A stretch of DNA of 64,000 bases, taken from positions 434,001 through 498,000 of the forward strand of contig NZ_QKVK01000003.1 in the NCBI RefSeq assembly GCF_003234965.1, given 5' to 3'. The position numbers were made by a program, and so were the translations under genes. Origin of the DNA: Aestuariivirga litoralis (GTDB lineage Bacteria; Pseudomonadota; Alphaproteobacteria; Rhizobiales; Aestuariivirgaceae). The first letter of the stretch is position 1. Every line of letters begins with the position of its first letter. Below the pieces are notes generated by a model. That model was not told the DNA's origin and did no database searches. It was given only the letters and a program-made list of their open reading frames with translations. Positions 17,661-36,064 of the stretch are shown here, piece after piece.

Positions 17661-18503
17661 ATGCACATTCCACCCTTCAACAATCGCAACGCGCCGATCG
17701 TCGGCATCGACGATGCGCGCGTGCCGCTCAACTACTTCAACATCGTCAAGCTCGGCCGCGGCGTGTCCTTCGAGTATCGCGTGCCCGGCTACGAGACGGC
17801 GGTGGTGCCTGCCACGGGCACGCTCGACGTCGACGCCGGGGGCGAGCGCTTCGCCGCCATCGGCAACCGCGGCCTCGACGTGTGGGATGGCGAACCGGAG
17901 GGCGTGTTCGTGCCGCCGGGCACGAGGGCGCGCTTCACCTGCCTCTCCGAGACGGCCGAAGTGTTCATCGCCGGCGCTCGCTTCGATGGCGGCGGCGAAC
18001 CCTTCGCGGTGCGCAGCGCCGACATCGACGTGGTGCAATATGGCTCCGACGACACCAAGACGCACCGCAAGATCAAGCACATCCTCGGCGCCAAGTACCG
18101 CGACCGGGTGGGCCGCCTGCTGGTGTCGGAGCTCTTCACGGTGGGGGCGGGCGGCTGGTCCGGCTTTCCGCCGCACAAGCATGATACCGACCGGCTGCCG
18201 GACGAGACCCGCCATGACGAGACCTACAACTTCCGTTTCCGCCCGGCGCACGGCTTCGGCCTGCAGCTGGTGCAGCGGGAGGACGGCAAGGTGGGCGATG
18301 CCTATCATATCATCGATGGCTCCACGGTCGTCCTCGACCGGGGCTATCACCCTTGCGTCGCGGCGCCGGGCTACGAGATGTACTACTTCACCATCCTCGG
18401 GGGCTTGAGCCAGCGCCCGCTGGTGCAGTTCTTCCAGCCCGAACACGCCTACCAGGTCGAGACCATCCCCGGCATCAAGGACATGATCGCGAAGTTCAAA
18501 TGA
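17661..18503 (+). CDS. iolB: 5-deoxy-glucuronate isomerase
   Basis: This bicupin isomerase (280 aa) converts 5-deoxy-glucuronate to 5-dehydro-2-deoxygluconate. The metal-binding histidines and glutamate are expected in FPPHKHDTDRLPDE and the following RHDETYNFRF. The C-terminal HPCVAAPGYEMYYFTILGG is characteristic of IolB. The ATG at 17661 is 7 bases after the kinase stop. The aldolase gene starts within its last codons (4-base overlap). Confidence 0.9.
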   Translation: MHIPPFNNRNAPIVGIDDARVPLNYFNIVKLGRGVSFEYRVPGYETAVVPATGTLDVDAGGERFAAIGNRGLDVWDGEPEGVFVPPGTRARFTCLSETAEVFIAGARFDGGGEPFAVRSADIDVVQYGSDDTKTHRKIKHILGAKYRDRVGRLLVSELFTVGAGGWSGFPPHKHDTDRLPDETRHDETYNFRFRPAHGFGLQLVQREDGKVGDAYHIIDGSTVVLDRGYHPCVAAPGYEMYYFTILGGLSQRPLVQFFQPEHAYQVETIPGIKDMIAKFK

Positions 18504-19330
18504 CGGTCGCAACGCTGCGCGAGATTCTGGATGTCGCCCGGGCCGGTAGCTTCGGCGTGGCTGGGCTCGTGGTGCTCGGCTGGGAGGATGCCCGGGCCTT
18601 CGCCGAGGCGGCGGACGAAACGGGCCTTCCCATCGTGCTGCAGGCCGGGCCGGGTGCGCGCCGCCACACGCCCGTAGCCGTGCTCGGGGCGATGTTCCGC
18701 CACGTCGCGGAAAATGCGCGGGTCCCGGTTGCCTGCCACATCGATCATGCGACAACGCTGGACGAGTGCCTCCGGGGCATCGAGGCGGGGTTCACCTCTG
18801 TGATGATCGACGGATCGTCCCTGCCGCTTGCCGAGAACATTGCGCTCACCCGCCGCGTGGTCGAGGCCGCGCGGGCTTCCGGTGTCTCGGTCGAGGGCGA
18901 GGTCGGCTACGTGGGCTATGCGGGTGGCCCGGCCTCTGCCTTCACCGCGCCAGACGATGCCGTGCGCTTCGCGGCCGAGACGGAGGTCGACGCCCTGGCG
19001 GTGTCCGTCGGCAATGTGCACCTGCAGACCGAGAAGACGCGGGGCATCGACATGGCCGCGCTGGGTGCCATCGCGGCGGTGACGCAGGTTCCGCTGGTGC
19101 TGCATGGCGGCAGCGGCATCGACCCCGTGACGCGGCGGTTGCTCGCACGCCAGTACCGCGTGGCGAAGTTCAACATCGGCACGGAACTCCGGCAGGCCTT
19201 CGGCGGCGCCTTGCGTCAGGTGCTGGCGGAGCATCCCGAACGCTTCGACCGAAACGAGATATTGTCGGCGACGATTCCCGGCCTGCGCGCCGCGGCCCGT
19301 GACGTGATCACAAACCTTGGGCCGGACTAG
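18500..19330 (+). CDS. Class II aldolase (IolJ/fructose-bisphosphate aldolase-like)
   Basis: This zinc-dependent class II aldolase (276 aa) fits the last carbon-carbon cleavage of inositol catabolism (6-phospho-5-dehydro-2-deoxygluconate to DHAP and malonic semialdehyde). Zinc ligands and catalytic residues lie in VACHIDHATTLDECLRG, VEGEVGYVGYAGG, VGNVHLQTE and LVLHGGSGIDP. The gene overlaps iolB by 4 bases, and its end overlaps the convergent LacI gene by 4 bases. A tagatose- or fructose-bisphosphate substrate cannot be excluded from sequence alone. Confidence 0.84.
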   Translation: MTVATLREILDVARAGSFGVAGLVVLGWEDARAFAEAADETGLPIVLQAGPGARRHTPVAVLGAMFRHVAENARVPVACHIDHATTLDECLRGIEAGFTSVMIDGSSLPLAENIALTRRVVEAARASGVSVEGEVGYVGYAGGPASAFTAPDDAVRFAAETEVDALAVSVGNVHLQTEKTRGIDMAALGAIAAVTQVPLVLHGGSGIDPVTRRLLARQYRVAKFNIGTELRQAFGGALRQVLAEHPERFDRNEILSATIPGLRAAARDVITNLGPD

Positions 19331-20361
19331 CGCTTCCGCCTGAGCGACGTGCGCTCCACCAGCGAACAGGCAAACCGCCGAGACACGGCAGGCCTGCCGT
19401 CCTCGACCATGCCGGAGATCATTTCCACAGCGGCGCCGATGATCTCGGCCAGGGGCTGGCGGATGGTGGTGAGGCCATAGGATGTCCACCCCGCCATGGC
19501 GATGTCGTTGAAGCCGAGGATGCCGATCCGGCGCGGAACCTCGATGCCTTTCGCGACACAGGCATCGAGTGCGCCGATGGCGAGAATGTCATCGCCGCAG
19601 AACACCGCATCGAAACTCCCACGGCCAAGAAGCTGCTGCATCAGAGCCTGTCCTGTCTCATGGGAGTAGGATGCGCCGAACATGGCCTCGCAGGGCGCGA
19701 GTCCATGTTCGGCAAGACCGGCACACAGCCCGGAGAGCCTGTCGACCGTCGAGGAGGCCGCTTCCGGGCCGCCGAGAAAGGCGATCCGCCGGTAGCCGCG
19801 CTCGACCAGTGTCCGGGCGGCGAGCTTGCCGCCGGCCCGGTTGTCCACGCCCGCCACCGCAATGCCCCGAGCCGTCCGCGCCCGGCCGAAGGCGTGGACG
19901 ACCGGAAGGCCGGCGGCGCGACAGCCCTCGAGGAATGACTGCGGTAACGTGGACGAGGCGATGATGACCCCGTCGACATTGTATTGCAGCAGCATGTCGA
20001 GGGCCGCGGCGGACTCCGTCTGCCCGGAAAGATTGGCAAGCAGGGGACGAAGCCCCCGCTGCTGCAGCAGGCGCGTGAAGTGATCGAAGATCTCCATGAA
20101 GGCGGGATTGTCGAAGTTGTTGGACACCAGCCCGATGAGCTTCGTCCGCCCGGTCATCAGGCTCTGGGCCAGCAGGTTGGGCCGGTAGCCCAGCTCGCGC
20201 GCTGCCGCAAGCACGCGCTGGCGGGTGGCCGGCGACACGCTGGCGCCGGCGGTGAAGGTGCGCGACACGGCCGATACGGAAACACCGGCGCGCGCCGCGA
20301 CCTCGCGTGCCGTCAGCCGGCGGGCGGAAATGCGGGGCATGTCTGCAGGCACATGTTTCAC
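19327..20361 (-). CDS. LacI-family transcriptional regulator
   Basis: This 344-aa repressor has an N-terminal LacI HTH and hinge (LTAREVAARAGVSVSAVSRT, then TRQRVLAAARELGYRPN). A periplasmic-binding-protein-like ligand domain follows, from KLIGLVSNNFDNPAF to the C-terminus. The start is GTG 20361 or ATG 20340. It is convergent with the aldolase gene and most likely controls the inositol-like regulon through the palindrome at 16613-16628, with a pathway intermediate as inducer. Confidence 0.88.
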   Translation of the reverse strand: MKHVPADMPRISARRLTAREVAARAGVSVSAVSRTFTAGASVSPATRQRVLAAARELGYRPNLLAQSLMTGRTKLIGLVSNNFDNPAFMEIFDHFTRLLQQRGLRPLLANLSGQTESAAALDMLLQYNVDGVIIASSTLPQSFLEGCRAAGLPVVHAFGRARTARGIAVAGVDNRAGGKLAARTLVERGYRRIAFLGGPEAASSTVDRLSGLCAGLAEHGLAPCEAMFGASYSHETGQALMQQLLGRGSFDAVFCGDDILAIGALDACVAKGIEVPRRIGILGFNDIAMAGWTSYGLTTIRQPLAEIIGAAVEMISGMVEDGRPAVSRRFACSLVERTSLRRKR

Positions 20362-20431
20362 GGCGCAGCCTCGCCTGCATTGCTAGCCGCTGTTCGGCCC
20401 TCAGGCAATGCGGCGGGAGGGGGCATGAGGC

Positions 20432-21340
20432 TCAATTTCCGGCACCCCCGAAGGACAGGCTCATGAACTCGTGGAAGGTGCGGGCGGCCGGGCTCTGGTC
20501 CCGCGAGGGGTTCCAGGCCAGTCCAACGTCCATGGTGGGGATATCCGCCACGATGTTGCGCAGCTCGATGCGCTGCCCCTCCAGCGACCACGGGCGGTAG
20601 ACCATGTCCGAGAGGATGGTCACCCCCATGCCGTCAGCCACCATGGAACGCACCGCCTCGACCGAGGAGGTGGTGAAGATGACGCCGGGCCGCAGCCCCG
20701 TCGGCTTCCAGTAGCGCCCCGCCGTCTGGTGGGCTTCGTCCACCGTCAGCATCACATAGGGTTCCGCCGCCACGTCCTCGAGCGTGATGGTGTCGGCGGC
20801 GAGCAACCGATGCTCCACGGGAAGCCACAACCGGCGTCGGGAGCGGATGAGCGTCTCATAGGCCAGGCGTTTGCGGTCCTGCAGGTTTGAGACGAGCATC
20901 ACGGCGAGGTCCAGCGAGCCATCCTTCAACCCGCCTTCGATGGCGTTGCGGGGAAGTTCATAGAGCTCGGCCCGGATGCGCGGGTAGCTCCGCGCGAAGC
21001 GGGTGTAGTGGCGCGGCAGGAAATAACCCGCGACCGTGTAGGACACCCCGATCCGCACCGTGCCGGTGATGGCGGTGTCCTCGGTGAGGGGGGCATGCTG
21101 CGCTGCATTCACCGCGGCCATGATGTTGCGGGCGTGCTGCAGGAAGCGCGCCCCCTCGGCGGTGAGGGAGACCCCCGTGGGCAGCCGCTTGAACAGGGCG
21201 ACGCCCGTGTCGTCCTCCAGCTGCTTGATCGCCGCCGTCACGGCTGACTGCGAGACGTTGAGCTCGATTGCCGCCTGGCTCACCTGGCCCGCATCCGCCG
21301 TGGCGATGAAATAGCGGACCTGCTTGAGCGAAAGTGGCAT
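20432..21340 (-). CDS. LysR-family transcriptional regulator of the pxp cluster
   Basis: This 302-aa LysR regulator begins PLSLKQVRYFIATADAGQVS, and its HTH continues QAAIELNVSQSAVTAAIKQL. A two-subdomain effector-binding region follows (GTVRIGVSYTVAGYFL, GMGVTILSDMVYR). ATG 21340 gives the standard N-terminus; longer in-frame starts lie in the promoter. It is divergent from pxpA with 117 bases between them. That gap contains a direct repeat and an inverted repeat that could be its binding sites. It probably senses the cluster's substrate. Confidence 0.88.
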   Translation of the reverse strand: MPLSLKQVRYFIATADAGQVSQAAIELNVSQSAVTAAIKQLEDDTGVALFKRLPTGVSLTAEGARFLQHARNIMAAVNAAQHAPLTEDTAITGTVRIGVSYTVAGYFLPRHYTRFARSYPRIRAELYELPRNAIEGGLKDGSLDLAVMLVSNLQDRKRLAYETLIRSRRRLWLPVEHRLLAADTITLEDVAAEPYVMLTVDEAHQTAGRYWKPTGLRPGVIFTTSSVEAVRSMVADGMGVTILSDMVYRPWSLEGQRIELRNIVADIPTMDVGLAWNPSRDQSPAARTFHEFMSLSFGGAGN

Positions 21341-21341
21341 A

Positions 21342-21380
21342 TCTGATTTTCCGATAGCGGGATGCAGTTTTTCTGATTTT
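21342..21380. repeat. Direct repeats TCTGATTTT in LysR/pxpA promoter region
   Basis: TCTGATTTT occurs at 21342-21350 and again at 21372-21380, exactly 30 bases apart, or about three helical turns on one DNA face. They lie in the AT-rich part of the divergent promoter. They may be activator half-sites or simply promoter AT boxes. Confidence 0.4.
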
Positions 21381-21392
21381 ACAATATTTGCG

Positions 21393-21416
21393 TTGTCCCG
21401 CAAGCTCTTGGGACAA
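21393..21416. promoter_or_regulatory. Inverted repeat upstream of pxpA
   Basis: TTGTCCC and GGGACAA form a perfect 7-bp inverted repeat around 10 bases, ending 41 bases before the pxpA start. It is a candidate operator for the adjacent LysR regulator or for another factor. A structured leader RNA is also possible. Confidence 0.45.
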
Positions 21417-21457
21417 GATGGCGCTTAAGCGCAGGACGCACAGGGCAGGAGGTTCAG

Positions 21458-22186
21458 GTGACAGTCATCAACTGTGACATGGGCGAGGCGTTCGGCCTCT
21501 ACAAGATGGGCGACGATGCGGGATTGATGCCGCTGATCGACGTGGCCAACGTGGCCTGCGGCTTCCATGGCTCCGACTTCAACCACATGCGCACCACCGT
21601 GCAGCTCGCCAGGAAGCATGGCGTGAAGGTGGGCGCGCATCCCTCGCTCCCTGACCTGCAGGGCTTCGGCCGGCGCGAGATGAAGATGGGACGCGACGAG
21701 CTCACCAACTGCATCATCTACCAGGTGGGGGCGCTCAAGGGCTTCCTCGAGGCCGAGGGCATGACCCTCAACCACATCAAGCCCCATGGCTCGCTCTACG
21801 GCATGGCGGCGCGGATGGAGGAGGTGGCGCAGGCCGTGGCCGATGCGGCTGACGTCTTCAAGGTGCCGCTGATGGGCATGATCAACACCTTCCACGAGAA
21901 GGTCTACACCGCGCGCGGCCACAAATTCATCGCCGAATTCTATGCCGATCTCGACTACCGCGACGATGGCTCCCTCATCATCACCCGCGAGCATGAGGCG
22001 AAGGACCCGGCCCATGCGGCCGCACTCTGCCTGCGCGCCATTCGCGAGGGCAAGGTGAGGGGCGTGGGCGGCGGTGACGTCACGGTGCGCGCCGATGCGA
22101 TCTGCGTCCACTCCGATACGCCCAATGCGGTCGCTATTGCGCAGGCCGTGCGCGACGCCGTGAAGCCCTATATCGACGCCGCCTGA
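21458..22186 (+). CDS. pxpA: LamB/YcsF family protein, 5-oxoprolinase subunit A-like
   Basis: This 242-aa LamB/YcsF protein is homologous to PxpA, which acts with PxpB and PxpC in ATP-dependent opening of 5-oxoproline. Family motifs are INCDMGEAFGLYKMGDD, the NVACGFHGSDFNHM segment, GAHPSLPDLQGFGRREM and IKPHGSLYGMAARM. The start is GTG 21458, preceded by an AGGAGG site at 21447-21452. It leads an operon with a biotin carrier, a biotin carboxylase, pxpB and pxpC. The substrate may be 5-oxoproline or another lactam/amide. Confidence 0.85.
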   Translation: MTVINCDMGEAFGLYKMGDDAGLMPLIDVANVACGFHGSDFNHMRTTVQLARKHGVKVGAHPSLPDLQGFGRREMKMGRDELTNCIIYQVGALKGFLEAEGMTLNHIKPHGSLYGMAARMEEVAQAVADAADVFKVPLMGMINTFHEKVYTARGHKFIAEFYADLDYRDDGSLIITREHEAKDPAHAAALCLRAIREGKVRGVGGGDVTVRADAICVHSDTPNAVAIAQAVRDAVKPYIDAA

Positions 22187-22212
22187 CATTTTTACAGAAA
22201 CGAGGACAGACA

Positions 22213-22443
22213 ATGGCCCAGCTTCTCTCGCCCCTCCCCGGAACCTTCTACAGGAAGCCGGCGCCCGACAAGCCCGCCTACAAGAATGACGGCGACAAGG
22301 TCGCCAAGGGCGACGTCATCGGGCTGATCGAGGTGATGAAGTCCTTCACCGAGGTGAAGGCCGATGCCGCCGGCAAGATCAAGTTCGTGGCCGACAACGA
22401 GGAGCCGGTGATGGCCGGGCAACCGCTGGCGGAGATAGGCTGA
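22213..22443 (+). CDS. Biotin carboxyl carrier protein (minimal biotinyl domain)
   Basis: This 76-aa protein is little more than a biotinyl domain. The biotin attachment lysine is about K43 in IEVMKSFTEV, matching the usual E-[AV]-M-K motif. It is half the size of a typical AccB and lacks the N-terminal linker. It sits between pxpA and a biotin carboxylase gene in one operon, so it would carry carboxybiotin between that carboxylase and the PxpBC-like carboxyltransferase. Annotating it as a general acetyl-CoA carboxylase subunit would be misleading here. Confidence 0.85.
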   Translation: MAQLLSPLPGTFYRKPAPDKPAYKNDGDKVAKGDVIGLIEVMKSFTEVKADAAGKIKFVADNEEPVMAGQPLAEIG

Positions 22444-22445
22444 GC

Positions 22446-23813
22446 ATGGCCATCCGGAAGCTCCTCATCGCCAATCGCGGCGAGATCGCGGTGCGCATCA
22501 TCCGCGCGGCGCGGGAGCTCGGGCTCAGGACCGTGCAGGTGCATTCGGCGGCGGACGCCGAGATGCTGGCGGTGAAGATGGCCGACGAGGCGGTGAACAT
22601 CGGCCCGCCACATGCCGCCAAATCCTATCTCAACATCGAAAACATCCTGAAGGCCGCGAAGGAGACGGGCGCCGACGCCGTGCACCCCGGCTATGGCTTC
22701 CTTGCCGAAAATGCGGGCTTTGCCGATGCGGTGGAGGCTGCGGGGCTGGTCTTCGTCGGACCCAAGGGCGATTCCATCCGCGTCATGGGCGACAAGGTGG
22801 CGGCGCGGGTCGCGGCGGAGGCGGCGGGTGTTCCCGTGGTTCCCGGCTCCGACGGCCGCGTGGATGACCCGGAACACGCCAGGCACATCGCCATGGCGAT
22901 CGGCTTTCCGGTCATGATCAAGGCCGCGGCGGGCGGTGGCGGGCGCGGCATCCGCATCGCCCATGACATGGCGGAATTCGAGACGCTGATGCCGCAGGCC
23001 TCCGCCGAGGCCAAGGCGGCCTTCGGTGACGGCGGTCTCTACATCGAGAAGGTGATCGAGCGGGCGCGCCACATCGAGGTGCAGATCCTCGGCGACGGCC
23101 AGCGCGCCATCCACTGCTTCGAGCGCGAATGCTCGCTGCAGCGCCGCCGCCAGAAGGTGTGGGAAGAAGCACCCTCCGCCGTGCTGCCGCAGACGGTGCG
23201 CGAGAAGCTCTGCGAGTCTGCCGTGGCACTGGCTGAGGCGGTGAACTACCGCGGCGCCGGCACGCTCGAATATCTCTATGACGACGTGACGCATCACTTC
23301 TACTTCATCGAGATGAACACCCGCATCCAGGTGGAGCATCCGGTCACCGAGATGATCACCGGCATCGACCTGGTGCGCGAGATGATCCGTATTGCCGGTG
23401 GCGAGCCCCTGTCGATCCGACAGGAAGACGTGCGGATCAACGGCCACGCCATCGAGGTGCGCATCAATGCCGAGGACCCGGCGAAGAACTTCCAGCCCGC
23501 CCCCGGCACGGTGACGGCGCTGCGCGTTCCCGGCGGGCCCGGCACGCGCTTCGACACCATGCTCTACCAGGGCTACCAGGTGCCGCCCTTCTATGATTCG
23601 CTTCTGGGCAAGCTGATCGTCTGGGACACGACGCGCGCGGGCGCCATCGCCCGCATGGCGCGGGCCCTCGATGAACTCGCGGTCGAGGGCCTGTCCACCA
23701 CCAAGCCGCTGCACCAGTTGCTGGCGCAGGACGAGAGTGTCGCGAAGGCGGATTTCCACACGCGCTGGCTCGAGCCCTGGCTCGAGGCCAATGCCCACAG
23801 ACTGAATTCATGA
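22446..23813 (+). CDS. accC: Biotin carboxylase
   Basis: This 455-aa ATP-grasp biotin carboxylase begins IRKLLIANRGEIAVRIIRAA. It has the glycine-rich ATP loop IKAAAGGGGRGIRIAH and the catalytic EMNTRIQVEHPVTEMITG region. Length and motifs match AccC and the BC domain of urea carboxylase. It starts 2 bases after the carrier protein gene and is followed by pxpB and pxpC. It would carboxylate the biotin on the adjacent carrier, probably for a dedicated amide/lactam carboxylation rather than for fatty acid synthesis. Confidence 0.88.
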   Translation: MAIRKLLIANRGEIAVRIIRAARELGLRTVQVHSAADAEMLAVKMADEAVNIGPPHAAKSYLNIENILKAAKETGADAVHPGYGFLAENAGFADAVEAAGLVFVGPKGDSIRVMGDKVAARVAAEAAGVPVVPGSDGRVDDPEHARHIAMAIGFPVMIKAAAGGGGRGIRIAHDMAEFETLMPQASAEAKAAFGDGGLYIEKVIERARHIEVQILGDGQRAIHCFERECSLQRRRQKVWEEAPSAVLPQTVREKLCESAVALAEAVNYRGAGTLEYLYDDVTHHFYFIEMNTRIQVEHPVTEMITGIDLVREMIRIAGGEPLSIRQEDVRINGHAIEVRINAEDPAKNFQPAPGTVTALRVPGGPGTRFDTMLYQGYQVPPFYDSLLGKLIVWDTTRAGAIARMARALDELAVEGLSTTKPLHQLLAQDESVAKADFHTRWLEPWLEANAHRLNS

Positions 23814-23829
23814 GGAGGATGGCGCAGCA

Positions 23830-24705
23830 ATGAAGACGCGGTATTCCTATGGAGGCGACGAGCACATCTTCGTCGAGTGCGACGAGGAAATGTCACTCGA
23901 AGCCTTCTTCAAGTCGCTGTCCATGGCGACGGCGATCAAGAAGGCGAAGATCAAGGGCGTAACCGAGATCTGCCCGGCCAACGCCTCGATGCAGGTGAAG
24001 TTCGATCCGGACGTCATCAAGCCCGCCGACATGCTGAAGGAGCTGAAGGCGATCGAGAAGGCGGCGGCCAAGGCCAAGCCCGTCATCAAGTCGCGCATCA
24101 TCGAGATCCCGGTGCTCTACAACGATCCGTGGACGCACGAGACGCTGATGCGCTTCCGCGAACGCCACCAGGACCCGAAATCGACCGACATCGAATATAC
24201 CGCGCGCATCAACAATCTCGATGGCGTGGACGGCTTCATCAAGGCGCATTCGGGCGCACCCTGGTTCGTTTCCATGGTGGGCTTCGTGGCGGGGCTGCCC
24301 TTCCTCTACCAGATGGTGGACCGCAAGCGGCAGATCCAGTCACCCAAATATCTCCGCCCACGGACGGATACGCCCAAGCTCACCGTGGGCCATGGCGGCT
24401 GCTTCGGCTGCATCTATTCGGTGCGGGGTGCGGGCGGCTACCAGATGTTCGGCATCACGCCGGTGCCAATTTATGACCCCAACCAGAAGATCAAGCACCT
24501 GAAGGACTTCATGTGCCTGTTCCGGCCGGGCGATATCGTCAAGTGGAAGCCCATCGACCGCGCGGAATATGACGCCACGGTCGCTGCGGTGGAGAAGGGC
24601 AAGTTCAATCTGAAAATGAAGGACGTGACCTTCGACCTGTCCGAATTCAAGAAGGACATGGATGGTTACAACGCCAAGCTGATGGGGGCGCTCAATGGCC
24701 GTTAA
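23830..24705 (+). CDS. pxpB: 5-oxoprolinase subunit B-like / carboxyltransferase (KipI-type)
   Basis: This 291-aa protein has the KipI/PxpB cyclophilin-like domain. The C-terminal half shows GFVAGLPFLYQM, then a proline/arginine-rich stretch and the GCIYSVRGAGGYQMFGITPV segment seen in PxpB and in the N-terminal half of the urea carboxylase CT domain. At 291 aa it is clearly longer than typical PxpB (about 220), because the N-terminal 80 residues and the C-terminus (after about residue 235) are extended. It overlaps pxpC by 11 bases. It would form the catalytic carboxyltransferase with PxpC. Confidence 0.82.
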   Translation: MKTRYSYGGDEHIFVECDEEMSLEAFFKSLSMATAIKKAKIKGVTEICPANASMQVKFDPDVIKPADMLKELKAIEKAAAKAKPVIKSRIIEIPVLYNDPWTHETLMRFRERHQDPKSTDIEYTARINNLDGVDGFIKAHSGAPWFVSMVGFVAGLPFLYQMVDRKRQIQSPKYLRPRTDTPKLTVGHGGCFGCIYSVRGAGGYQMFGITPVPIYDPNQKIKHLKDFMCLFRPGDIVKWKPIDRAEYDATVAAVEKGKFNLKMKDVTFDLSEFKKDMDGYNAKLMGALNGR

Positions 24706-25663
24706 CGTCATCAAGCCCGGCCTTTCCACCACGGTGCAGGACTTGGGCCGGCCCGGCTACTACAATATCGGCATCCCGCTGTCGGGCGGCATGGACCGCT
24801 ATGCGCTGAAGGCCGCCAACCTGCTGGTCGGCAACAAGGAAGGTGCTGCCGTTCTGGAGGCCGTGTTCATGGGGCCTGAGCTCAAGTTCACCGAGGATGC
24901 GACGGTGGCCGTGACGGGTGCCGAGCTTCCGCCGCGTGTCGACGGTGACCCGCGCGACACCTGGACCTCCTTCAAGGTGAAGAAGGGCCAGACGCTGTCC
25001 TTCGACTTCCTGAAGAAGGGCGCGCGCGCCTATATCGCCGTCTCGGGCGGCATCGATGTTCCGCTCGTGCTGGGCTCGCGCTCCACCTACACGCTGGGAG
25101 CGCTCGGCGGCTTCAAGGGCCGCAAGCTCGAGGCGGGCGACAAGCTGCCCGTCGGCAAGGGCAGGGGGGCCAGGGAAGGCCGCACCATCCCCGAGAAGCT
25201 GCGCCGCGCGCCCGGCGCGCCGGCTGAACTGCGCATGCTGCCGGGCCTCTACTGGCACCGCATCACGGCGGATGCAGGCAAGCACTTCTTCGCCGACACC
25301 TGGAAGGTGGCGCCGGAGGCGGACCGCATCGGCTATCGCTTCCGCGGCGGGCGCCCGCTGGACTTCGTTCCGCGCGAGCAGCCCTTCGGTGCTGGCTCGG
25401 ACCCCTCCAACATCGTCGATGCCTGCTATCCTTACGGCTCCATCCAGGTGCCGGGTGGCACGGAGCCGATCGTGCTGCATCGCGATGCGGTGTCGGGCGG
25501 CGGCTATTTCATGGTCGGCACCGTGATCTCCGCCGACATGGACCTGATCGGGCAGTTGCAGCCCCACACGCCGGCCCGCTTCGTGGAAGTGACCATGGCG
25601 CAGGCGCTGAAGGCCCGGAAGGACCAGGCGAAGCTCTACGACAAGCTGAAGGCATCTCTGTGA
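24695..25663 (+). CDS. pxpC: 5-oxoprolinase subunit C-like / biotin-dependent carboxyltransferase (KipA-type)
   Basis: This 322-aa KipA/PxpC protein opens VIKPGLSTTVQDLGRPGYYN, a strong family signature. It continues with GIPLSGGMDRYALKAANLLV and ISGGIDVPLVLGSRST-type segments (here VSGGIDVPLVLGSRSTYTLG). The C-terminus has the NIVDACYPYGSIQVPGG region. In urea carboxylase the homologous half contacts carboxybiotin, so its coupling to a carrier/carboxylase pair here makes sense. It follows pxpB with an 11-base overlap and precedes bioY. Confidence 0.86.
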   Translation: MAVNVIKPGLSTTVQDLGRPGYYNIGIPLSGGMDRYALKAANLLVGNKEGAAVLEAVFMGPELKFTEDATVAVTGAELPPRVDGDPRDTWTSFKVKKGQTLSFDFLKKGARAYIAVSGGIDVPLVLGSRSTYTLGALGGFKGRKLEAGDKLPVGKGRGAREGRTIPEKLRRAPGAPAELRMLPGLYWHRITADAGKHFFADTWKVAPEADRIGYRFRGGRPLDFVPREQPFGAGSDPSNIVDACYPYGSIQVPGGTEPIVLHRDAVSGGGYFMVGTVISADMDLIGQLQPHTPARFVEVTMAQALKARKDQAKLYDKLKASL

Positions 25664-25674
25664 GGATCATGCAG

Positions 25675-26226
25675 ATGAACACAAACCTGTTCTCGACCGC
25701 CTTCCCGAAATCCCAGGCGCTGCACAAGGCGGCGGCCGTGGGGCTCGGCGTCGTCATCCTCACGCTGGCCTCCAAGGTGCAGGTGCCCTTCTGGCCGGTG
25801 CCGATGACGCTGCAGACCCTGGCCGTGCTGATGATCGGCGCCACCGCGGGCATGCGCCTCGGCGGAGGCACGGTGCTCGCCTGGCTGGGCCTCGGCGCCG
25901 TTGGTGCGCCCGTCTTCGCCACTGGTGCCGGCCTTGCCTATATGGCCGGCCCGACGGGTGGCTATCTCGCAGGCTTCCTGCTGGCGGCACTGGTGGTCGG
26001 CTATCTCGCCGACAGAGGCCATGGCCGCACGGTTGTCTCGGCGCTCGCCATGCTTCTGGTGGGTCTGGTCGCGATCTATGCGCTGGGCCTCGGCTGGCTC
26101 TCGCTGCTGATCGGCGCGCCGAAGGCCATGGCGGCGGGCCTCGTGCCCTTCATCCCGGCGGAAATCCTGAAGCTCGCCCTGGGCACGGCCATTCTCACCG
26201 CCGCCTGGAAGCAGGCGACACGCTGA
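25675..26226 (+). CDS. bioY: Biotin uptake S component (BioY)
   Basis: This 183-aa integral membrane protein is a BioY biotin-binding S subunit. Signature pieces are VQVPFWPVPMTLQTLAVLMI, the start of the substrate loop, and GAVGAPVFATGAGLAYMAGP. I preferred ATG 25675 because GAGG at 25662-25665 is well spaced from it; ATG 25669 is possible. No ECF ATPase or T subunit is nearby, so it would act alone or with a shared module. Its presence right after biotin-dependent genes supports a real need for biotin in this operon. Confidence 0.88.
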   Translation: MNTNLFSTAFPKSQALHKAAAVGLGVVILTLASKVQVPFWPVPMTLQTLAVLMIGATAGMRLGGGTVLAWLGLGAVGAPVFATGAGLAYMAGPTGGYLAGFLLAALVVGYLADRGHGRTVVSALAMLLVGLVAIYALGLGWLSLLIGAPKAMAAGLVPFIPAEILKLALGTAILTAAWKQATR

Positions 26227-26231
26227 TGGCA

Positions 26232-27200
26232 CTAGCCGTGGGCAGGAGACTTCAGTCTGGCCTGCTCACGGTACTCCTTGGGCGGAACACCGAAATGCGC
26301 CTTGAAGGCCCGCGAGAACTGCGCCTGGTCGCTGAAACCCCAGCGATAGGCGATCTCGGCCACCGTCTGGCGGTTGGAGCCGTCGCGCAACGCCTCGCGG
26401 CAGGCTTCGAGCCGCTGGTCGCGGATCCAGCTGCCCAGCGTCTGGTTGGTGTCGCGGAACAGTTCGTGCAGATAACGGGTGGAGATGCCGCAACCGCGCG
26501 CAATGGCCTCGGGGTCGAGCTCCGGGTCACCCATGTTGCGGCGGACGAAGGCTTCGATGCGCGTGAGGTGCGCCGTGCGAACGGTGGAATTGCCGGTGGT
26601 GAGCGTGCGCTCGTCGGCCTTGAGCGCCAGCACCAGCAGGTCGACCAGCTGCTGGCCCACCGTGGCGCGGGTTTCCGGGCTCATGGCGTCGAAGCGGTTG
26701 GGGATCAGGTGCAGCATGTCGGTGAACAACCCGCCCGCACCTTCCGTCGCATTGAACTGCAGCGAGCAGAAGCGGTCCGGCTGGCGGATGCGGCCACCCA
26801 GCGCCTTGGCCTCGACCTTCATCACCCACAGGTCCGCCGCCTCGGCATGGCTGAACTCATAGGGCTCGTGGCTGCGCTCGAGGATGAAGCCGCCGGGATT
26901 GCAGCGCACGTCCTTGCCGCATTGCGAGAAGAAGACCTCCGAGCGGGCCGGGACGGTGACGAGAAAATGCTCCTCGCGCTCCACCTTGAAGTGCTGCGGC
27001 AGGCGGCGGTACTGCAGCGCCTCCGAGGTGAGGCGGGAGAGCGAGACATCCCCCAACGTCCACAGCGTCAGGTCTCCCGCGAAGTGGTCGGGGTTCTTGA
27101 ATTGCAGGTCGAGCGGGAAATAGGCCGTCGCAATGGCGTCATGCCAGTGGCGGCTGCGGTCATGGGCAGGCGTTTCGGACGTGGTGATCGTCGTCTTCAT
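26232..27200 (-). CDS. AraC-family transcriptional regulator
   Basis: This 322-aa regulator has an N-terminal AraC-binding-like cupin domain (WHDAIATAYFPLDLQF and following strands) and a C-terminal AraC HTH pair. The latter reads PEAIARGCGISTRYLHELF and VAEIAYRWGFSDQAQFSRAF. The layout resembles FeaR/NitR-type regulators of amine or nitrile use. It is convergent with bioY (5-base gap) and divergent from the hydantoinase operon across 242 bases, so that operon is the likely target. Confidence 0.86.
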   Translation of the reverse strand: MKTTITTSETPAHDRSRHWHDAIATAYFPLDLQFKNPDHFAGDLTLWTLGDVSLSRLTSEALQYRRLPQHFKVEREEHFLVTVPARSEVFFSQCGKDVRCNPGGFILERSHEPYEFSHAEAADLWVMKVEAKALGGRIRQPDRFCSLQFNATEGAGGLFTDMLHLIPNRFDAMSPETRATVGQQLVDLLVLALKADERTLTTGNSTVRTAHLTRIEAFVRRNMGDPELDPEAIARGCGISTRYLHELFRDTNQTLGSWIRDQRLEACREALRDGSNRQTVAEIAYRWGFSDQAQFSRAFKAHFGVPPKEYREQARLKSPAHG

Positions 27201-27239
27201 GGTCGCGTCCCGTCAGGTGCACGAAGCTTAGGCACAGGG

Positions 27240-27274
27240 CGCAGCCTGCGCAACCGGTTCCGCAGCCTGTGCGC
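27240..27274. promoter_or_regulatory. 21-base-spaced direct repeat, candidate AraC-type site
   Basis: CGCAGCCTG occurs at 27240-27248 and 27261-27269. Extended to 12 bases the copies differ at one position. A 21-base period (two helical turns) is the classical arrangement of AraC-family half-sites. The site is 40 bases from the AraC gene start and about 170 bases upstream of the hydantoinase gene. The rest of this 242-base gap shows no gene. Confidence 0.45.
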
Positions 27275-27442
27275 CAGAAATCAAATGAGCGTTCCGGCCC
27301 TGCAAAGACGGGAGGCCGGAAAGCCACATAAGGTCCAAGCTCGGAAAGGTGCGCAAGACACCGCAAAGGGGAGGGTCAGGCTCGGTCAGGGTCCGCTGCC
27401 CCTTGCGCGCAATCTTGCGCTCCCCGCAACAGCGAGGACAGC

Positions 27443-29260
27443 ATGATGGCCCAGGTAGCGAAAAAGGCAGCGAAAAAGGCAGCGAAGAAGCCGGCAAGGA
27501 AGCCCGCGCGCAGGGCGGTGAAGGTGGACCCCATCACCCTCTCGGTGGTCCGCGGCGTGCTGGAGACGACCCAGCGCGAGATGACCCTGTCGCTCGAAAA
27601 GACAGCGCGCTCCTCGGTGTTCAACCTGGCGCATGACTATTCGACGGCGCTGTTCAACGCGAAGCCGGAGATGATCCTGCAGGGCCAGGACATTCCGATC
27701 CATCTCGGCTCGCTCATCCCCGCCATGAAGTCGGTCGCCAAGTTCTTCGAGGGCGACATCCACGAGGGCGACCTGATCCTCCACAACGACCCGGCCTTCG
27801 GCGGCAGCCATGCCATCGACACCTGCATGTACAAGCCGGTCTTCTACAAGGGCAAGCTCGTCTACTGGACGGTCTGCAAGGGCCACCTGACCGACATCGG
27901 CGGCCCGGTGCCCGCAGGTTACAATCCCAATGCCAAGGAGATCTATGCCGAGTGCCTGCGCATTCCGCCGGTGAAGATCTGGGATCGCGGCAAGCCGCGC
28001 CACGACGTGCTCAACATGATCCTCACCAACATGCGCGCGCGGCGCGACCAGGAGGGCGACTTCAACGCCCTGATCGGCGCCTGCCAGGTGGGCGAGCGCA
28101 ACCTCATCGCCATGCTCGACAAATATGGCCAGCCCACCGTCGATGCCTGCATCAACGAGCTTCTCGACATGGCCGACCGCCACATGCGCGGCCTGATCAA
28201 GACCGTTCCCGACGGCACCTATGAAGGCGTTGCCATCCTCGAGGATGCGGGCCACGGCTTCGGCGATTTCGAGATCAAAGCCAAGGTGACGATCAAGGGC
28301 GATTCCTGCCACATCGCCATCACGTCGCCGCCGCAGATTCCCTATTTCATCAATTCCTACGAGGGCAATTCGCATTCCGGCGTCTATCTCGGCCTCATGA
28401 TGTTCGCGGCCCTGCCGCCACCCTACAACGAGGGTCTCTACCGCTGCGTCTCGGTCGATTTCGGCCCCAAGGGCACGATCTGCAATGCGCAGGAGCCGGC
28501 CCCGCACATGAACTGCACCACGACGCCGATGGAAACCTTGACCGACGCGGTGCGCCTTGCCTTCGAGAAGGCCATGCCCTCCAAGGTGGCGGCCAGCTGG
28601 GGCCATGCCAATGGCCTCAACATCGCCGGCTGGGACTCGCGCACCAACGAGGAATTCGTGACCATGGTACTGGCCACCATCATCTCGGGCGGCGGCGCCA
28701 CGCCGCAGCAGGATGGCTGGCATGCGGTCGGCCCCGAATGCTGCTTCGGCGCGCTGACTTCGGGTGACGTCGAGCTGCTCGAATATTCCTACCCGATCAT
28801 CATCCACAAATACTCATTGATGACCGACTCGGGCGGTGCGGGAAAGTTCCGCGGCGGCTCCGGCACGGCCTGGGAGGTGGAGCCCCTGGACAAGGAAATG
28901 CTCTGCATCGGCTTCGGCGAGGGCCGCCGCATTCCGGCCATGGGAGCGGCAGGGGCCAAGTCGACGGACGTCGATTCCAAGGTCGGCCGCGTGAAGCTGA
29001 CGCGCGGCGGCAAGGCGGAAGTCAAGCGCACCAACATCATGGAGACCATCAAGCCGGGCGAAACCGTCACCAACATGAACCCGGGAGGCGGCGGTTACGG
29101 CAACCCCTATGAACGCCCCATCGAAAAGGTGGTGTGGGACGTCAAGAACGGCCTCGTCTCGATCAAGGGCGCCAGGGATGACTATGGCGTGGTGATCTCG
29201 AACCCCGAAACCCTCGATGTCGACGTGGCCGCCACCCGGCGGCTGCGGTCGGCGGCGTAA
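27443..29260 (+). CDS. Hydantoinase B / oxoprolinase family protein
   Basis: This 605-aa HyuB-type subunit acts with HyuA in ATP-dependent opening of hydantoin or 5-oxoproline rings. Family segments are DPITLSVVRGVLETTQREM, GDLILHNDPAFGGSHAIDT, YYRPY-like C-terminal strands and PGGGGYGNPYERP. The N-terminal 28 residues form an unusual Lys/Ala-rich tail of AAKK/PARK repeats before the normal start of the fold; a GTG at 27518 would remove it. A GAGGA site precedes ATG 27443. The hyuA gene follows after 20 bases. Confidence 0.87.
   Translation: MMAQVAKKAAKKAAKKPARKPARRAVKVDPITLSVVRGVLETTQREMTLSLEKTARSSVFNLAHDYSTALFNAKPEMILQGQDIPIHLGSLIPAMKSVAKFFEGDIHEGDLILHNDPAFGGSHAIDTCMYKPVFYKGKLVYWTVCKGHLTDIGGPVPAGYNPNAKEIYAECLRIPPVKIWDRGKPRHDVLNMILTNMRARRDQEGDFNALIGACQVGERNLIAMLDKYGQPTVDACINELLDMADRHMRGLIKTVPDGTYEGVAILEDAGHGFGDFEIKAKVTIKGDSCHIAITSPPQIPYFINSYEGNSHSGVYLGLMMFAALPPPYNEGLYRCVSVDFGPKGTICNAQEPAPHMNCTTTPMETLTDAVRLAFEKAMPSKVAASWGHANGLNIAGWDSRTNEEFVTMVLATIISGGGATPQQDGWHAVGPECCFGALTSGDVELLEYSYPIIIHKYSLMTDSGGAGKFRGGSGTAWEVEPLDKEMLCIGFGEGRRIPAMGAAGAKSTDVDSKVGRVKLTRGGKAEVKRTNIMETIKPGETVTNMNPGGGGYGNPYERPIEKVVWDVKNGLVSIKGARDDYGVVISNPETLDVDVAATRRLRSAA
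27458..27493 (+). repeat. 12-base tandem repeat encoding Lys/Ala tail
   Basis: The unit GCGAAAAAGGCA is repeated exactly at 27458-27469 and 27470-27481, with a partial third copy to 27493. It encodes the AKKA repeats at the start of the HyuB-type protein. The A5 runs and tandem layout make it prone to strand slippage in steps of 12 bases, or to frameshifts in the A runs. Confidence 0.7.
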
Positions 29261-29280
29261 GCGAGAGAGGGAGAACGGAC

Positions 29281-31365
29281 ATGCGCACCACCTATCGTCT
29301 CGGCATCGATGCCGGCGGCACCTTCACCGATTTCGTCGTCGCCAACCGCAACACGGGCGACGTCAAGCTGTTCAAGGCACTCTCGACGCCGTCTGACCCC
29401 ACCAAGGCCATCGAGAATGGCTTGAAGCTGATCGCGGATGATTTCGGCATCACGCCGGCCGACCTCGTCTCCGACTGTGATCTCTGCATCAACGGCACCA
29501 CCGTGGGCCTCAATGCGCTGATCACGCACCGCGGCGGCAAGACGGGTCTGATCTGCACCGCGGGCCACGAGGACTCGATCGAGATCCGCAACGGCCACAA
29601 GGAAGACGGCTTCCGCTATGACCCGGAATATCCCGCCGCAACCATGTTGGTGCCGCGCTACCTCCGCAAGGGCGTGCGCGAGCGCGTGCTGTCAGATGGC
29701 TCGGTGCGCGTCAGGATGGAGGAGGCGGATGTCCGCGCCGCCTGCGAGCTCTTCGCCAAGGAAGGCGTTGAAACGGTTGCCATCTCTTTCGTCTGGTCGG
29801 TGCTGAACCCGGAGCATGAACGGCGCGCGGCGGAGATCGTGCGCAAGATGCTGCCCGATGCGATCCTCACCGTGGGCTCGGAGCTCTATCCGCAGGTGCG
29901 CGAGTATACCCGCACCTCGACGGCAGTGGTGAATGCCTATCTGGCTCCCGTGATGCGGAAATACGTGAAGGCGGTGGATGCCTATTTCCGCTCGCTGGGT
30001 GCGAAGCAGCCGGTGCGCTACTTCCAGTCCAATGGCGGCCTTGCCATCGGCCAGGCGATGACGGACCGTTCGGTCTATGCCATCAACTCAGGCCCTGCCT
30101 CGGCGCCGCAGGCGGGCCTCTATGTCTCCGCCCCGTTCAAGAAGAAGAACGTGATCACGGTGGACATGGGCGGCACCTCCTTCGACATCACGCTGACCAA
30201 GGACGGCCAGACTAACCTCAACAAGAACATCGACTTCCTGCGCTATCGCATCGGCGTGCCGATGATCCAGGTGGAGACGCTGGGCGCGGGCGGCGGGTCA
30301 ATCGGCTGGATCGACTCGCTGGGCCTCATCCAGGTTGGCCCGCAGTCGGCAGGCTCCGAGCCCGGCCCCGCCTGCTACGGCCAGGGCGGCACGGAGCCGA
30401 CGACGTCGGACGCGAACCTCGTGCTGGGCTATCTCAATCCCGATGGCCTGCTGGGCGGCAAGCTGCCGCTCGACCTCGAGAAGGCGAAGAAGGCCATCAA
30501 GACCAGGGTTGCGGACAAGCTCGGCATCTCGGTCGAGCGCGCGGCCTATGGCATGTACACCATCGTCAACAACAACATGGTGAACGGCATCCGCCGCGTC
30601 TCGGTGGAGCGCGGCTATGACCCGCGTGACTTCGTGCTGGTGGGGGCGGGCGGCGCCACCGCGGCCCACATCACCGCACTCGCGCGTGAGATGGGGATCG
30701 ACACCATCATCCTCCCCAAGCTCGCCTCCGGACTCTGCGCCTTCGGCCAGATCATCTCCGACGTGAAATACAACTACATGGCCACCGCTCCTTTGCGGCT
30801 CGACAATGCCGCGGCCTACAAGCGCATCGACACGCTGTTCGGCGAGATCGAGAAGCAGGGCGTGGCGCATCTCAAGACCGACGGCTTCAAGCAGGGCCAG
30901 ATCGACGTGAAGCGCAGCCTCGACATGCGCTATGTCGGCCAGGTGCATGAATGCACGGTCGACATCGGCACCTTCCCGATCAACGAGAAGACCATCGAGA
31001 AGGTGAAGGATGCCTTCCACCGCCGCCACGAGGAACTCTACACATACTCCGAGCGCCACAATGCGGTGGAGGTCGTCAATATCGAGTCCACGCTTTATGG
31101 CCGTATCGACAAGCCGAAGGCGCCGAAGCTGAAGAAGGGCATTCCGGTCTCCAAGGCGCTGAAGGGCCATCGCAAGGCGATCTTCGAGGCCTCCGGAAAA
31201 TCGACCAAGACTCCGATCTATGATGGTGCCAGACTGGGGGCGGGCGCGAGCATCGCCGGCCCTGCCATCATCGAGGAGGTGACGACCACCATCGTCATCG
31301 AGCCGGGCTGGACCGCGACGCTCGATGCCAGCGGCTCCTACGTCATCACGCGCAAGAAAAGATAA
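29281..31365 (+). CDS. Hydantoinase A / oxoprolinase family protein
   Basis: This 694-aa HyuA-type subunit has an ASKHA-fold ATPase. It opens with RLGIDAGGTFTDFVVANR (phosphate 1 loop), continues with INGTTVGLNALITHRGGKTG and contains VITVDMGGTSFDITLTKDG (phosphate 2 region). The late VEVVNIESTLYGRIDKP and C-terminal IEEVTTTIVIEPGW also fit. No third subunit like acetone carboxylase gamma is present, so hydantoinase/oxoprolinase is the better call. It is followed 9 bases later by a complete Liv-type importer. Confidence 0.88.
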   Translation: MRTTYRLGIDAGGTFTDFVVANRNTGDVKLFKALSTPSDPTKAIENGLKLIADDFGITPADLVSDCDLCINGTTVGLNALITHRGGKTGLICTAGHEDSIEIRNGHKEDGFRYDPEYPAATMLVPRYLRKGVRERVLSDGSVRVRMEEADVRAACELFAKEGVETVAISFVWSVLNPEHERRAAEIVRKMLPDAILTVGSELYPQVREYTRTSTAVVNAYLAPVMRKYVKAVDAYFRSLGAKQPVRYFQSNGGLAIGQAMTDRSVYAINSGPASAPQAGLYVSAPFKKKNVITVDMGGTSFDITLTKDGQTNLNKNIDFLRYRIGVPMIQVETLGAGGGSIGWIDSLGLIQVGPQSAGSEPGPACYGQGGTEPTTSDANLVLGYLNPDGLLGGKLPLDLEKAKKAIKTRVADKLGISVERAAYGMYTIVNNNMVNGIRRVSVERGYDPRDFVLVGAGGATAAHITALAREMGIDTIILPKLASGLCAFGQIISDVKYNYMATAPLRLDNAAAYKRIDTLFGEIEKQGVAHLKTDGFKQGQIDVKRSLDMRYVGQVHECTVDIGTFPINEKTIEKVKDAFHRRHEELYTYSERHNAVEVVNIESTLYGRIDKPKAPKLKKGIPVSKALKGHRKAIFEASGKSTKTPIYDGARLGAGASIAGPAIIEEVTTTIVIEPGWTATLDASGSYVITRKKR

Positions 31366-31374
31366 CGGAGGGTC

Positions 31375-32118
31375 ATGGCCCAGTCGCTTTCAGCAACGGA
31401 TGTCTCGGTCGCCTTCGAGGGGCTGCGCGCCCTCTCGCATGTGACCCTCGACGTGCCGCGCGAGACGGTGACGGGCCTGATCGGCCCCAATGGCGCGGGC
31501 AAGACCACGCTGGTCAATGTATTGACCGGCTTCCAGAAGCCGACCGATGGCACGGTGAGCCTCGACGGCGAGAGCATCGCCGGCGTACCGCCCTACAAGG
31601 TCCGGCAGAAGGGGATCGCCCGCACCTTCCAGTCGGGCCGGCTGTTCTCCGACCTCTCGGTGCTCGACAATCTGGAAGTGACGGGTGTGGGCCTCGGCCT
31701 TTCCCGCCGCGAGGCCGCGAAGAAGGCCGACGAGATGCTGGACTGGATCGGCATCTCGCATTTGGCCGAGCGCACCGCGGGTGGGCTCCCCTATACGGAT
31801 GAGCGCCGCGTCGCCATCGGCCGCGCCCTGATGCTGGAACCGAAATACCTCCTGCTCGACGAGCCCGCAGCCGGCATGTCGGCGGAGGAGGCGAATGACC
31901 TCGCCCAGCTGATCCGCAGCATCATCGCAGAGGTGAAATGCGGCGTGCTGCTCATCGAACACAATATCGGGCTGGTGCTCACCATCTGCGACCATATCCA
32001 CGTGCTCGATTCGGGCGAGGTGATCGAGGTGGGTCCACCCGCCGCCATCAAGGCCTCGGAGCGCGTGCGCCATGCCTACATGGGCACCCAGGCCGAGGCG
32101 GAAGGAGCGGTGCTGTGA
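31375..32118 (+). CDS. Liv-type ABC transporter ATP-binding protein (LivG-like), second system
   Basis: This 247-aa ATPase has Walker A GPNGAGKTT, Q-loop region ARTFQSGRLFSDLSV, Walker B YLLLDEPAAGMSAEEAN and H-loop LIEHNIGLVL. The LivG signature region reads GLPYTDERRVAIGRAL. It is the first transporter gene after hyuA, and the operon order suggests import of the ring compound opened by HyuAB. It overlaps the next ATPase gene by 4 bases (GTGA). Confidence 0.87.
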   Translation: MAQSLSATDVSVAFEGLRALSHVTLDVPRETVTGLIGPNGAGKTTLVNVLTGFQKPTDGTVSLDGESIAGVPPYKVRQKGIARTFQSGRLFSDLSVLDNLEVTGVGLGLSRREAAKKADEMLDWIGISHLAERTAGGLPYTDERRVAIGRALMLEPKYLLLDEPAAGMSAEEANDLAQLIRSIIAEVKCGVLLIEHNIGLVLTICDHIHVLDSGEVIEVGPPAAIKASERVRHAYMGTQAEAEGAVL

Positions 32119-32837: not shown

Positions 32838-32838
32838 G

Positions 32839-33753: not shown

Positions 33754-33755
33754 TC

Positions 33756-34826: not shown

Positions 34827-34845
34827 ACTCAAGAGGAGGACGTCA

Positions 34846-36042: not shown

Positions 36043-36064
36043 CGCTGAAACCTGCATGACGAGG

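Follow-up and report, generated by a model that had tools for sequence, protein, structure and literature searches.

The urea carboxylase and urea amidolyase of Kluyveromyces lactis (KlUC, 3va7; KlUA, 5i8i) combine a biotin carboxylase (BC), a biotin carrier, and a carboxyltransferase (CT), and they carboxylate an amide before it is hydrolyzed. Here we analyze a 64,000-nucleotide stretch of the 4.23-Mb Aestuariivirga litoralis genome (C20:434001-498000, hereafter the window), which holds at positions 21458-26226 a block of six genes encoding similar parts as five separate proteins, namely a LamB/YcsF hydrolase in place of allophanate hydrolase, a carrier, a BC, and two CT subunits, followed by a BioY biotin uptake protein. 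The CT is of the same family as that of the K. lactis enzymes and shares their conserved lysine (Lys1605) and tyrosine, whereas the BC lies on the AccC side, the carrier is AccB-like, and an aspartate (D180) replaces a tryptophan or tyrosine.

A second relative is the 5-oxoprolinase PxpABC (Escherichia coli YbgJKL, and those of Bacillus subtilis and Corynebacterium glutamicum), which likewise has a LamB/YcsF hydrolase and two CT-like subunits for an ATP-linked amide opening, and whose YbgK resembles our A/B subunit. PxpABC is described without biotin in the accessible part of its literature (PMC13274462); unlike the A. litoralis cluster with its dedicated carrier and BC, only 1 of 24 loci examined has an adjacent BC, and all 24 carry an arginine/tryptophan (R/W) pair in the C/D-like subunit. 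PDB entry 9yx5, as far as the entry itself describes it, is a Mycobacterium smegmatis long chain acyl-CoA carboxylase complex with MSMEG_0435-MSMEG_0436 bound, in which a PxpB/PxpC-like pair sits physically with a biotinylated BC-carrier subunit; that pair is of the R/W type, and AccA3 replaces the dedicated carrier and BC. A Lactiplantibacillus plasmid (our locus L233) groups a carrier, BC, CT pair, and LamB protein as separate genes, but in another order and with other partners (pxpB-CT-carrier-BC-hydro-lyase-PxpA-NRAMP), and its C/D subunit, named PxpB in the record, matches at only 21%. A paper on Lactiplantibacillus pentosus reports pxpB/pxpC and, separately from them, an extra carrier-BC pair (PMC12427679). 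The caprolactamase CapAB (6yra) also uses bicarbonate and ATP to drive lactam opening, and CapAB-like genes adjoin our cluster, but it belongs to the hydantoinase A/B family and has no biotin.

Lombard and Moreira (2011; PMC3199775) left open whether stand-alone carboxyltransferases of the urea carboxylase type (UCT) work with other biotin carboxylases or in another reaction, and a paper on marine rhodopsin clusters mentions biotin-dependent carboxyltransferase/carboxylase genes with a PxpA-like gene, guessing urea (PMC10308929). Our literature and database searches found no functional assignment of the five-gene set, and NCBIfam holds its carrier and BC as acetyl-CoA carboxylase families. Related CT pairs with other biotin links are known from 9yx5 and the Lactiplantibacillus plasmid, and the five-gene set is a variant of these. 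The reading we favor, with slightly better than even confidence, is that it encodes a five-protein biotin-dependent enzyme that would open a lactam, by N-carboxylation and then ring opening by the LamB/YcsF protein.

Layout and conserved linkage of the gene set

The six genes lie on the forward strand with intergenic gaps of -11 to +26 bases, confirming the order and tight spacing described in the original prediction, which was made from the letters of the window. A Pfam search placed their main domains above the cut-offs (in gene order LamB_YcsF, Biotin_lipoyl, Biotin_carb_N/CPSase_L_D2/Biotin_carb_C, CT_C_D, CT_A_B, and BioY). The first gene (21458-22186) encodes the LamB/YcsF protein, a PxpA-like hydrolase (PF03746, 294 bits) that passes the subfamily cut-offs of NF003814 and NF003816 and falls short of the equivalogs. 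It is followed by the 76-aa biotin carboxyl carrier (22213-22443; NF005457, 112.7 bits against a cut-off of 87), whose VMK motif contains K43 (codon 22339-22341), the predicted biotinylation site. This lysine is invariant in four aligned carriers, and the MK motif occurs in all 108 carrier-like matches of a 156-locus database, control loci included. The 455-aa BC (22446-23813) scores above the cut-offs of NF009471, NF006367, and TIGR00514 and contains the strings of what we take to be the catalytic motifs. The PxpB-like C/D subunit (23830-24705; PF02682) and the PxpC-like A/B subunit (24695-25663; PF02626; above the TIGR00724 cut-off) come next, and BioY (25660-26226; PF02632, 124 bits) closes the block. 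With an ATP-grasp domain in the BC, an MK motif in the carrier, and a CT, the set has the broad makeup of a biotin-dependent carboxylase.

A genome scan with the C/D subunit found at least 558 stretches encoding a relative. We took the best 80 of these for locus comparison and added four plasmid loci, giving an 84-locus set in which close relatives are over-represented. The order PxpA-carrier-BC-CT(C/D)-CT(A/B), on one strand, is intact in 78 of the 84, so the check for a conserved order that accompanied the original prediction came out in its favor. Of the six deviating loci, four run into contig ends, one carries PxpA in reverse roughly 5 kb away, and one, from the archaeon Haladaptatus, is rearranged. 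This conservation of order is far beyond chance.

For neighbor counts we used 41 loci, comprising 30 dereplicated at 85% identity (including an intermediate form, L144) and 11 plasmid loci without that filter, and scored BLAST matches within 7 kb of CT(A/B); loci cut by contig ends count as misses, as do short carriers under the BLAST threshold, such as those of Haladaptatus and L139, which are visible otherwise. The 24 control PxpB loci were hand-picked and non-random, drawn from the tier of scan matches below 78 bits (4 in genomes with the biotin-linked family, 20 others); 20 urea carboxylase loci were likewise chosen by hand. The Fisher tests quoted compare the 41 with the 24, among which related loci are not independent. 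A BC was found in 36/41 family loci versus 1/24 canonical pxpB loci (p = 9e-12) and a carrier in 34/41 versus 0/24 (p = 7e-12), with PxpA present in 38/41 and 24/24. BioY is an occasional companion (7/41 versus 0/24; p = 0.041). Eighteen further loci from a class sample all have PxpA and the carrier, and 17 have the BC. The set is rearranged yet linked in Haladaptatus, Natrialba, Rubrobacter, and Rhodococcus, within about 11 kb in the last three, and linkage that survives rearrangement in these three genera is difficult to account for unless the genes share a function.

Origin of the biotin parts and identity of the carboxyltransferase

The carrier is AccB-like, scoring 64.7 bits to the biotin carboxyl carrier protein (BCCP) and 18 to urea carboxylase. 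In a BC tree of 59 rows, their kinds assigned from size and neighbors, the family BCs fall on the AccC side, separated by a starred branch (100/98) from those of urea carboxylases, which group with the alpha chains of acyl-CoA carboxylases; this tree does not settle whether the family BCs are sisters of AccC itself. The main group holds 19 members plus the intermediate (94/92, unstarred), with archaeal and Rubrobacter BCs branching apart. An approximately unbiased (AU) test rejected a single clade of the 19 proteobacterial/rhodococcal members, the intermediate, and 10 urea carboxylases (p-AU 0.000117), and tree and test together rule out fission of a urea carboxylase. An AccC-side BC with an AccB-like carrier implies at least two separate joinings of a BC with such a CT. 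The sequences thus indicate that this machine is assembled, independently of urea carboxylase, from AccC-side biotin parts and a urea-carboxylase-type CT.

By its automatic names the cluster would be a second acetyl-CoA carboxylase, and the BC and carrier do exceed the NF009471, TIGR00514, and NF005457 cut-offs, with the BC on the AccC side. The CT pair, however, is CT_A_B/CT_C_D, a family other than AccA/AccD, and the gene set is tied to a LamB/YcsF hydrolase; we reject this identity on these grounds and regard it as highly improbable. The genome moreover has another carrier (C23:75876) adjoining another BC (C23:77110), probably the housekeeping accBC, together with accA at C1:764720 and a third BC that shares its 667-aa frame (C5) with a carrier domain. 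The cluster is therefore not the sole accB/accC pair, which would have told against the original prediction; of a complete accBCAD elsewhere, the carrier, BC, and accA were found, with accD outside the search. Given the CT family, the linkage, and the second carrier-BC pair, a biotin-dependent carboxylase/hydrolase distinct from acetyl-CoA carboxylase, as that prediction had it, is the best fit.

Neither CT subunit reaches the models for 5-oxoprolinase. The C/D subunit scores 71.2 bits against the PxpB equivalog TIGR00370 (cut-off 145.55) versus 134.5 bits against urea_carbox, and the A/B subunit scores 226.2 bits against the PxpC equivalog NF045499 (cut-off 500). The single-chain urea carboxylase model TIGR02712 (cut-off 1304 bits) is not reached either, the genes being separate and each part matching its own segment only. 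In NCBIfam, PDB, and fold searches the C/D subunit is closest to urea carboxylase, with the fold-search listing for its predicted model lending weak support. A C/D tree separates PxpB from a side that holds the family, urea carboxylase, and the intermediate (100/99), with a program warning about long branches.

At the residue level, the general base of carboxyl transfer in the K. lactis urea amidolyase is, by the published description, most likely Lys1605, and the K1605A variant turns over at about 10% (PMC5770610). K173 of our C/D subunit (codon 24346-24348) aligns with Lys1605, and the position is lysine in 100/100 family members, 1/1 intermediate, and 20/20 urea carboxylases, versus arginine in 24/24 PxpB. 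The position of Y204 is tyrosine in the first three groups and tryptophan in PxpB, so that the subunit carries the general-base lysine and GGY motif of a urea carboxylase. A second residue set gave K and Y in 18/18 family members and 16/16 intermediates. The subunits have in common with urea carboxylase 13 (C/D) and 11 (A/B) positions that pxp loci seldom show. Residue 180 departs from this likeness, being D in 100/100 family members, W (18) or Y (2) in the 20 urea carboxylases, and W (15) or F (1) in 16 intermediates, and the substrate pocket may differ accordingly. The parts, their conserved linkage, the urea carboxylase signature, and the separate descent of the BC can be read directly from the genes.

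A PxpABC-like 5-oxoprolinase that has gained biotin parts, turning 5-oxoproline into glutamate, is on this evidence unlikely. The LamB/YcsF protein does retain 33 residues that also occur in PxpA from ordinary pxp loci, and annotators call it 5-oxoprolinase subunit PxpA; CT_C_D is single-copy in the genome, which is thus without a canonical PxpB; and the best solved match of the A/B subunit is E. coli YbgK. Against it stand the failed PxpB and PxpC cut-offs, the K/Y pair in the C/D subunit where 24/24 PxpB have R/W, the GABA-type (4-aminobutyrate-type) rather than glutamate-type genes near a few members, and the coexistence of PxpB-tier matches with the family in 6 of the 15 other genomes that have it (G331, G159, G344, G314, G237, and G307). 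This coexistence makes plain 5-oxoproline a weak guess among the substrates first proposed (a lactam, an amide, or 5-oxoproline), of which a lactam perhaps stands.

Another alternative is a urea (or guanidine/ureide) carboxylase in split form, whose allophanate-like product would serve the use of nitrogen. It would suit the C/D subunit and the adjacent UrtB/D/E-like transporter, and genes annotated as amidase-family, which may or may not be allophanate hydrolases, lie 3-13 kb off in three plasmid loci. A whole-genome search with TIGR02713 found no allophanate hydrolase above the cut-off (six amidase-like matches, the best at 193 versus 511 bits), which speaks against urea, as do the LamB/YcsF partner (38/41 loci), D180, and the other descent of the BC; the urea guess for the marine relative comes without a test in the accessible text (PMC10308929). 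We consider this alternative quite unlikely.

The original description of a split urea carboxylase joined to 5-oxoprolinase parts thus stands for the parts and for the C/D subunit, which sides with urea carboxylase. It fails for the history, given the AccC-side BC, and for the 5-oxoprolinase parts, with both CT subunits under the PxpB and PxpC cut-offs and A/B about equally near YbgK. The best available identity, judged by sequence, would be neither a biotin version of PxpBC nor a urea carboxylase that fell into pieces; it would be a machine resembling urea carboxylase, put together independently of it and equipped with a LamB/YcsF hydrolase.

Proposed reaction and candidate substrates

From this makeup we infer biotin use, N-carboxylation, the order of steps, and the substrate. 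The BC would use ATP and bicarbonate to form carboxybiotin on carrier K43, the CT pair would move the carboxyl onto the substrate's amide nitrogen, K173 serving as general base in the manner of urea carboxylase acting on urea, and the LamB/YcsF protein would then hydrolyze the activated N-carboxy-lactam. The resulting N-carboxy-amino acid would shed CO2, so bicarbonate would be catalytic in a net ATP-driven hydrolysis of the lactam to an omega-amino acid. The scheme would follow urea amidolyase logic with LamB/YcsF replacing allophanate hydrolase, and BioY would provide biotin.

Hints to the substrate come from neighboring genes that the original prediction had not listed. Downstream of the cluster lie, on the forward strand, genes for HyuB (27443-29260), a hydantoinase B family protein like caprolactamase CapB (NF050157, 1099 bits against a cut-off of 1000), and HyuA (29281-31365), a hydantoinase A family protein like CapA (NF050156, 1258 bits against 1000). 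The best solved relative of HyuA is caprolactamase 6yra (874 bits), ahead of N-methylhydantoinase (442). HyuA and HyuB each occur in 11/41 loci, including diverged ones at 32-36%, and in 0/24 controls (p = 0.005 for HyuA). Caprolactam hydrolysis is endergonic, and CapAB requires ATP and bicarbonate (PMC8453981). In Ruegeria, CT(A/B) has about 6 kb away a GABA transaminase equivalog, next to a succinate-semialdehyde dehydrogenase (SSADH), and in L061 such an equivalog follows HyuA; an SSADH follows BioY in L267 (both SSADHs meet the subfamily and not the equivalog cut-off). An aminotransferase follows HyuA in L273, and the PxpA gene of Paenarthrobacter has alongside it genes for an aminotransferase, an aldehyde dehydrogenase, and a protein like glutamine synthetase. 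The CapAB-like neighbors and GABA-type genes fit a lactam that yields GABA or another omega-amino acid. This hint comes from a small number of loci and is missing from the majority; 2-pyrrolidone-like lactams, with GABA as product, are a plausible substrate class.

Several observations weigh against lactam opening by a five-protein biotin enzyme. GABA-type genes are rare: of three GABA transaminase BLAST matches within 7 kb in the 41 loci, only that of Ruegeria is a true one, and the SSADH matches in that range are generic aldehyde dehydrogenases (31-37%). The Hyu genes may serve a different substrate. In two genomes (G344 and G237; loci L140 and L141) that have PxpA-CT(C/D)-CT(A/B), the 20 kb retrieved contain neither a BC nor a carrier, L279 has a carrier directly before the CT with no BC between, the Paenarthrobacter stretch (25 kb) lists no BC or carrier, and the Natribaculum stretch (19 kb) lists a CT pair and carrier and no PxpA or BC. 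The A/B subunit matches YbgK (PxpC) at 173 bits, ahead of urea carboxylase at 151. AlphaFold models, built on 14 aligned rows for CT(C/D) and 13 for CT(A/B), have a mean predicted local distance difference test score (pLDDT) of 63.8 and 59.8, with active-site stretches below 50. Finally, R/W pairs also occur beside a BC, in L159 (with a carrier) and L229, so K173 is not a strict biotin marker; the pxpB-type cluster of the Lactiplantibacillus plasmid has a carrier and BC (by annotation, the residue not being aligned), and in 9yx5 an R/W pair is bound to the mycobacterial acyl-CoA carboxylase.

With R/W pairs beside a BC and in 9yx5, K173 was dropped as a sufficient mark of biotin use. R/W pairs beside biotin parts also mean that such CT pairs are coupled to biotin outside this family too, and the general idea has precedent. 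L159 and L229, from two Pseudomonadota genomes, combine R/W-type PxpB/PxpC with a BC and PxpA and resemble the mycobacterial pair of 9yx5. Family members lacking a nearby BC (L140, L141, L279, and L199) may, by analogy with that mycobacterial pair, borrow another BC.

The surroundings vary from locus to locus. The large subunit of a molybdenum (Mo) hydroxylase occurs in 10/41 loci versus 1/24 controls (p = 0.044) and a TorT-like binding protein in 13/41. A Mo hydroxylase near the cluster could make a lactam from an N-heterocycle. Such genes, for a xanthine/CO dehydrogenase-like large subunit, lie near the cluster in L195, L197, L198, L032, and L136, from Rubrobacter, Diaphorobacter, Sulfitobacter, and others; L197 and L198 also have the FAD and 2Fe-2S subunit genes.

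This variety of surrounding pathways would be in keeping with a carboxylase that retains its product, anabolic or CO2-fixing on an N- or C-nucleophile, with LamB acting before it or elsewhere in the path. LamB/YcsF is, however, the most constant partner (38/41), with PxpA its described relative, and urea amidolyase, the closest mechanistic relative, discards its CO2. We think this alternative rather unlikely.

Returning to lactam opening, its fullest form, which we advance only tentatively and hold to be less probable than not as a whole, is that carboxylation serves as temporary activation: CO2 would be placed on the lactam nitrogen and lost after LamB/YcsF opening, with biotin driving an uphill hydrolysis (e.g., 2-pyrrolidone to GABA), in a machine assembled independently of urea carboxylase and a family spread over Alpha-, Beta-, and Gammaproteobacteria, Actinobacteria, and Haloarchaea. 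If true, it would be a biotin route to ATP-driven lactam opening beside CapAB, of possible use in lactam/nylon-monomer chemistry. Many genomes carry the set under probably wrong names (acetyl-CoA carboxylase, allophanate hydrolase, and 5-oxoprolinase), and its dedicated BC and carrier partners of different origin make the stand-alone UCT question testable with five small genes.

Distribution, biotin supply, and surrounding genes

The closest relatives by CT(C/D) protein are metagenome-assembled genomes of Hyphomicrobiales type, two of them named Aestuariivirga, at 97-98% identity. Among 398 Pseudomonadota genomes, stand-alone C/D frames of at least 467 bits occur in 16 (A. litoralis included), with one more at 217; urea-carboxylase-sized frames (>1100 aa) score 95-126 bits and the remainder below 78. 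In the class sample of 385 genomes, the C/D family is present in 20, and a further 5 have the intermediate form only (174-234 bits). Named members occur in Diaphorobacter, Rubrobacter, Rhodococcus, Paenarthrobacter, and several Haloarchaea, with Ventosimonas gracilis (L090) as a gammaproteobacterial member. A tblastn search of plasmids with the C/D subunit matched 89 of 72,556 records at E < 1e-60, 21 of the 89 typed conjugative, with identities of about 44% to 75% among the matches listed. A wider search reached 543 records, and among 30 listed along its ranking, named urea carboxylases match at about 24-27% and PxpB-like/urea amidolyase-like proteins at about 21-29%. A scan of viral contigs found no relative.

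The intermediate CT family (172-234 bits; L284-L295 and L144; G569, G699, G467, G726, G655, and G249) occurs in several copies per genome within one alphaproteobacterial family. Some of its pairs come with PxpA and a BC and others without, and on some contigs two pairs lie close together; it looks like a substrate-diversified expansion.

In A. litoralis, no bioB was found above the cut-off, and BioY is present twice, once inside the cluster, so biotin is probably taken up from outside, and an importer gene is part of the cluster. In Acidiphilium, bioB comes directly after the five in a listing of plasmid genes, of a kind that is incomplete.

The original prediction had also not listed the regulators and transporter around the cluster. 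A LysR-type regulator (20432-21403, reverse strand; Pfam/NCBIfam) diverges from the cluster 54 bases upstream, and LysR-like matches occur in 24/41 family loci. A Pfam-identified AraC-family regulator (26232-27200, reverse strand) lies between the two enzyme blocks. Beyond HyuA, on the forward strand, three ABC transporter genes (31375-32118, 32121-32837, and 32824-33753) are of the LivG, LivF, LivH / UrtD, UrtE, UrtB kind, with NCBIfam matches below the equivalog cut-offs, and the periplasmic binding protein that follows (Peripla_BP_6; 34750-36042, forward strand; PF13458, 178 bits; weak UrtA/LivJ-like NCBIfam matches) is probably part of this Liv/Urt-type transporter. Transporters give no substrate, as Liv/Urt-type, TorT-type, and NCS1-like permeases all occur among the loci. 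An Rfam scan of window positions 20000-36500 found no family at the gathering score.

On plasmid pRHL2 of Rhodococcus jostii RHA1 (L194), the cluster has as its neighbor a bacterial microcompartment locus that includes genes for an aminotransferase and an aldehyde dehydrogenase. Further out in the window, an IolB-like isomerase, a class II aldolase, and a LacI-looking regulator frame (17661-20361) form a sugar/inositol-type operon upstream, and a second ABC transporter (36109-40656, reverse strand) bears a weak likeness to a putative B6/BMP-type uptake system.

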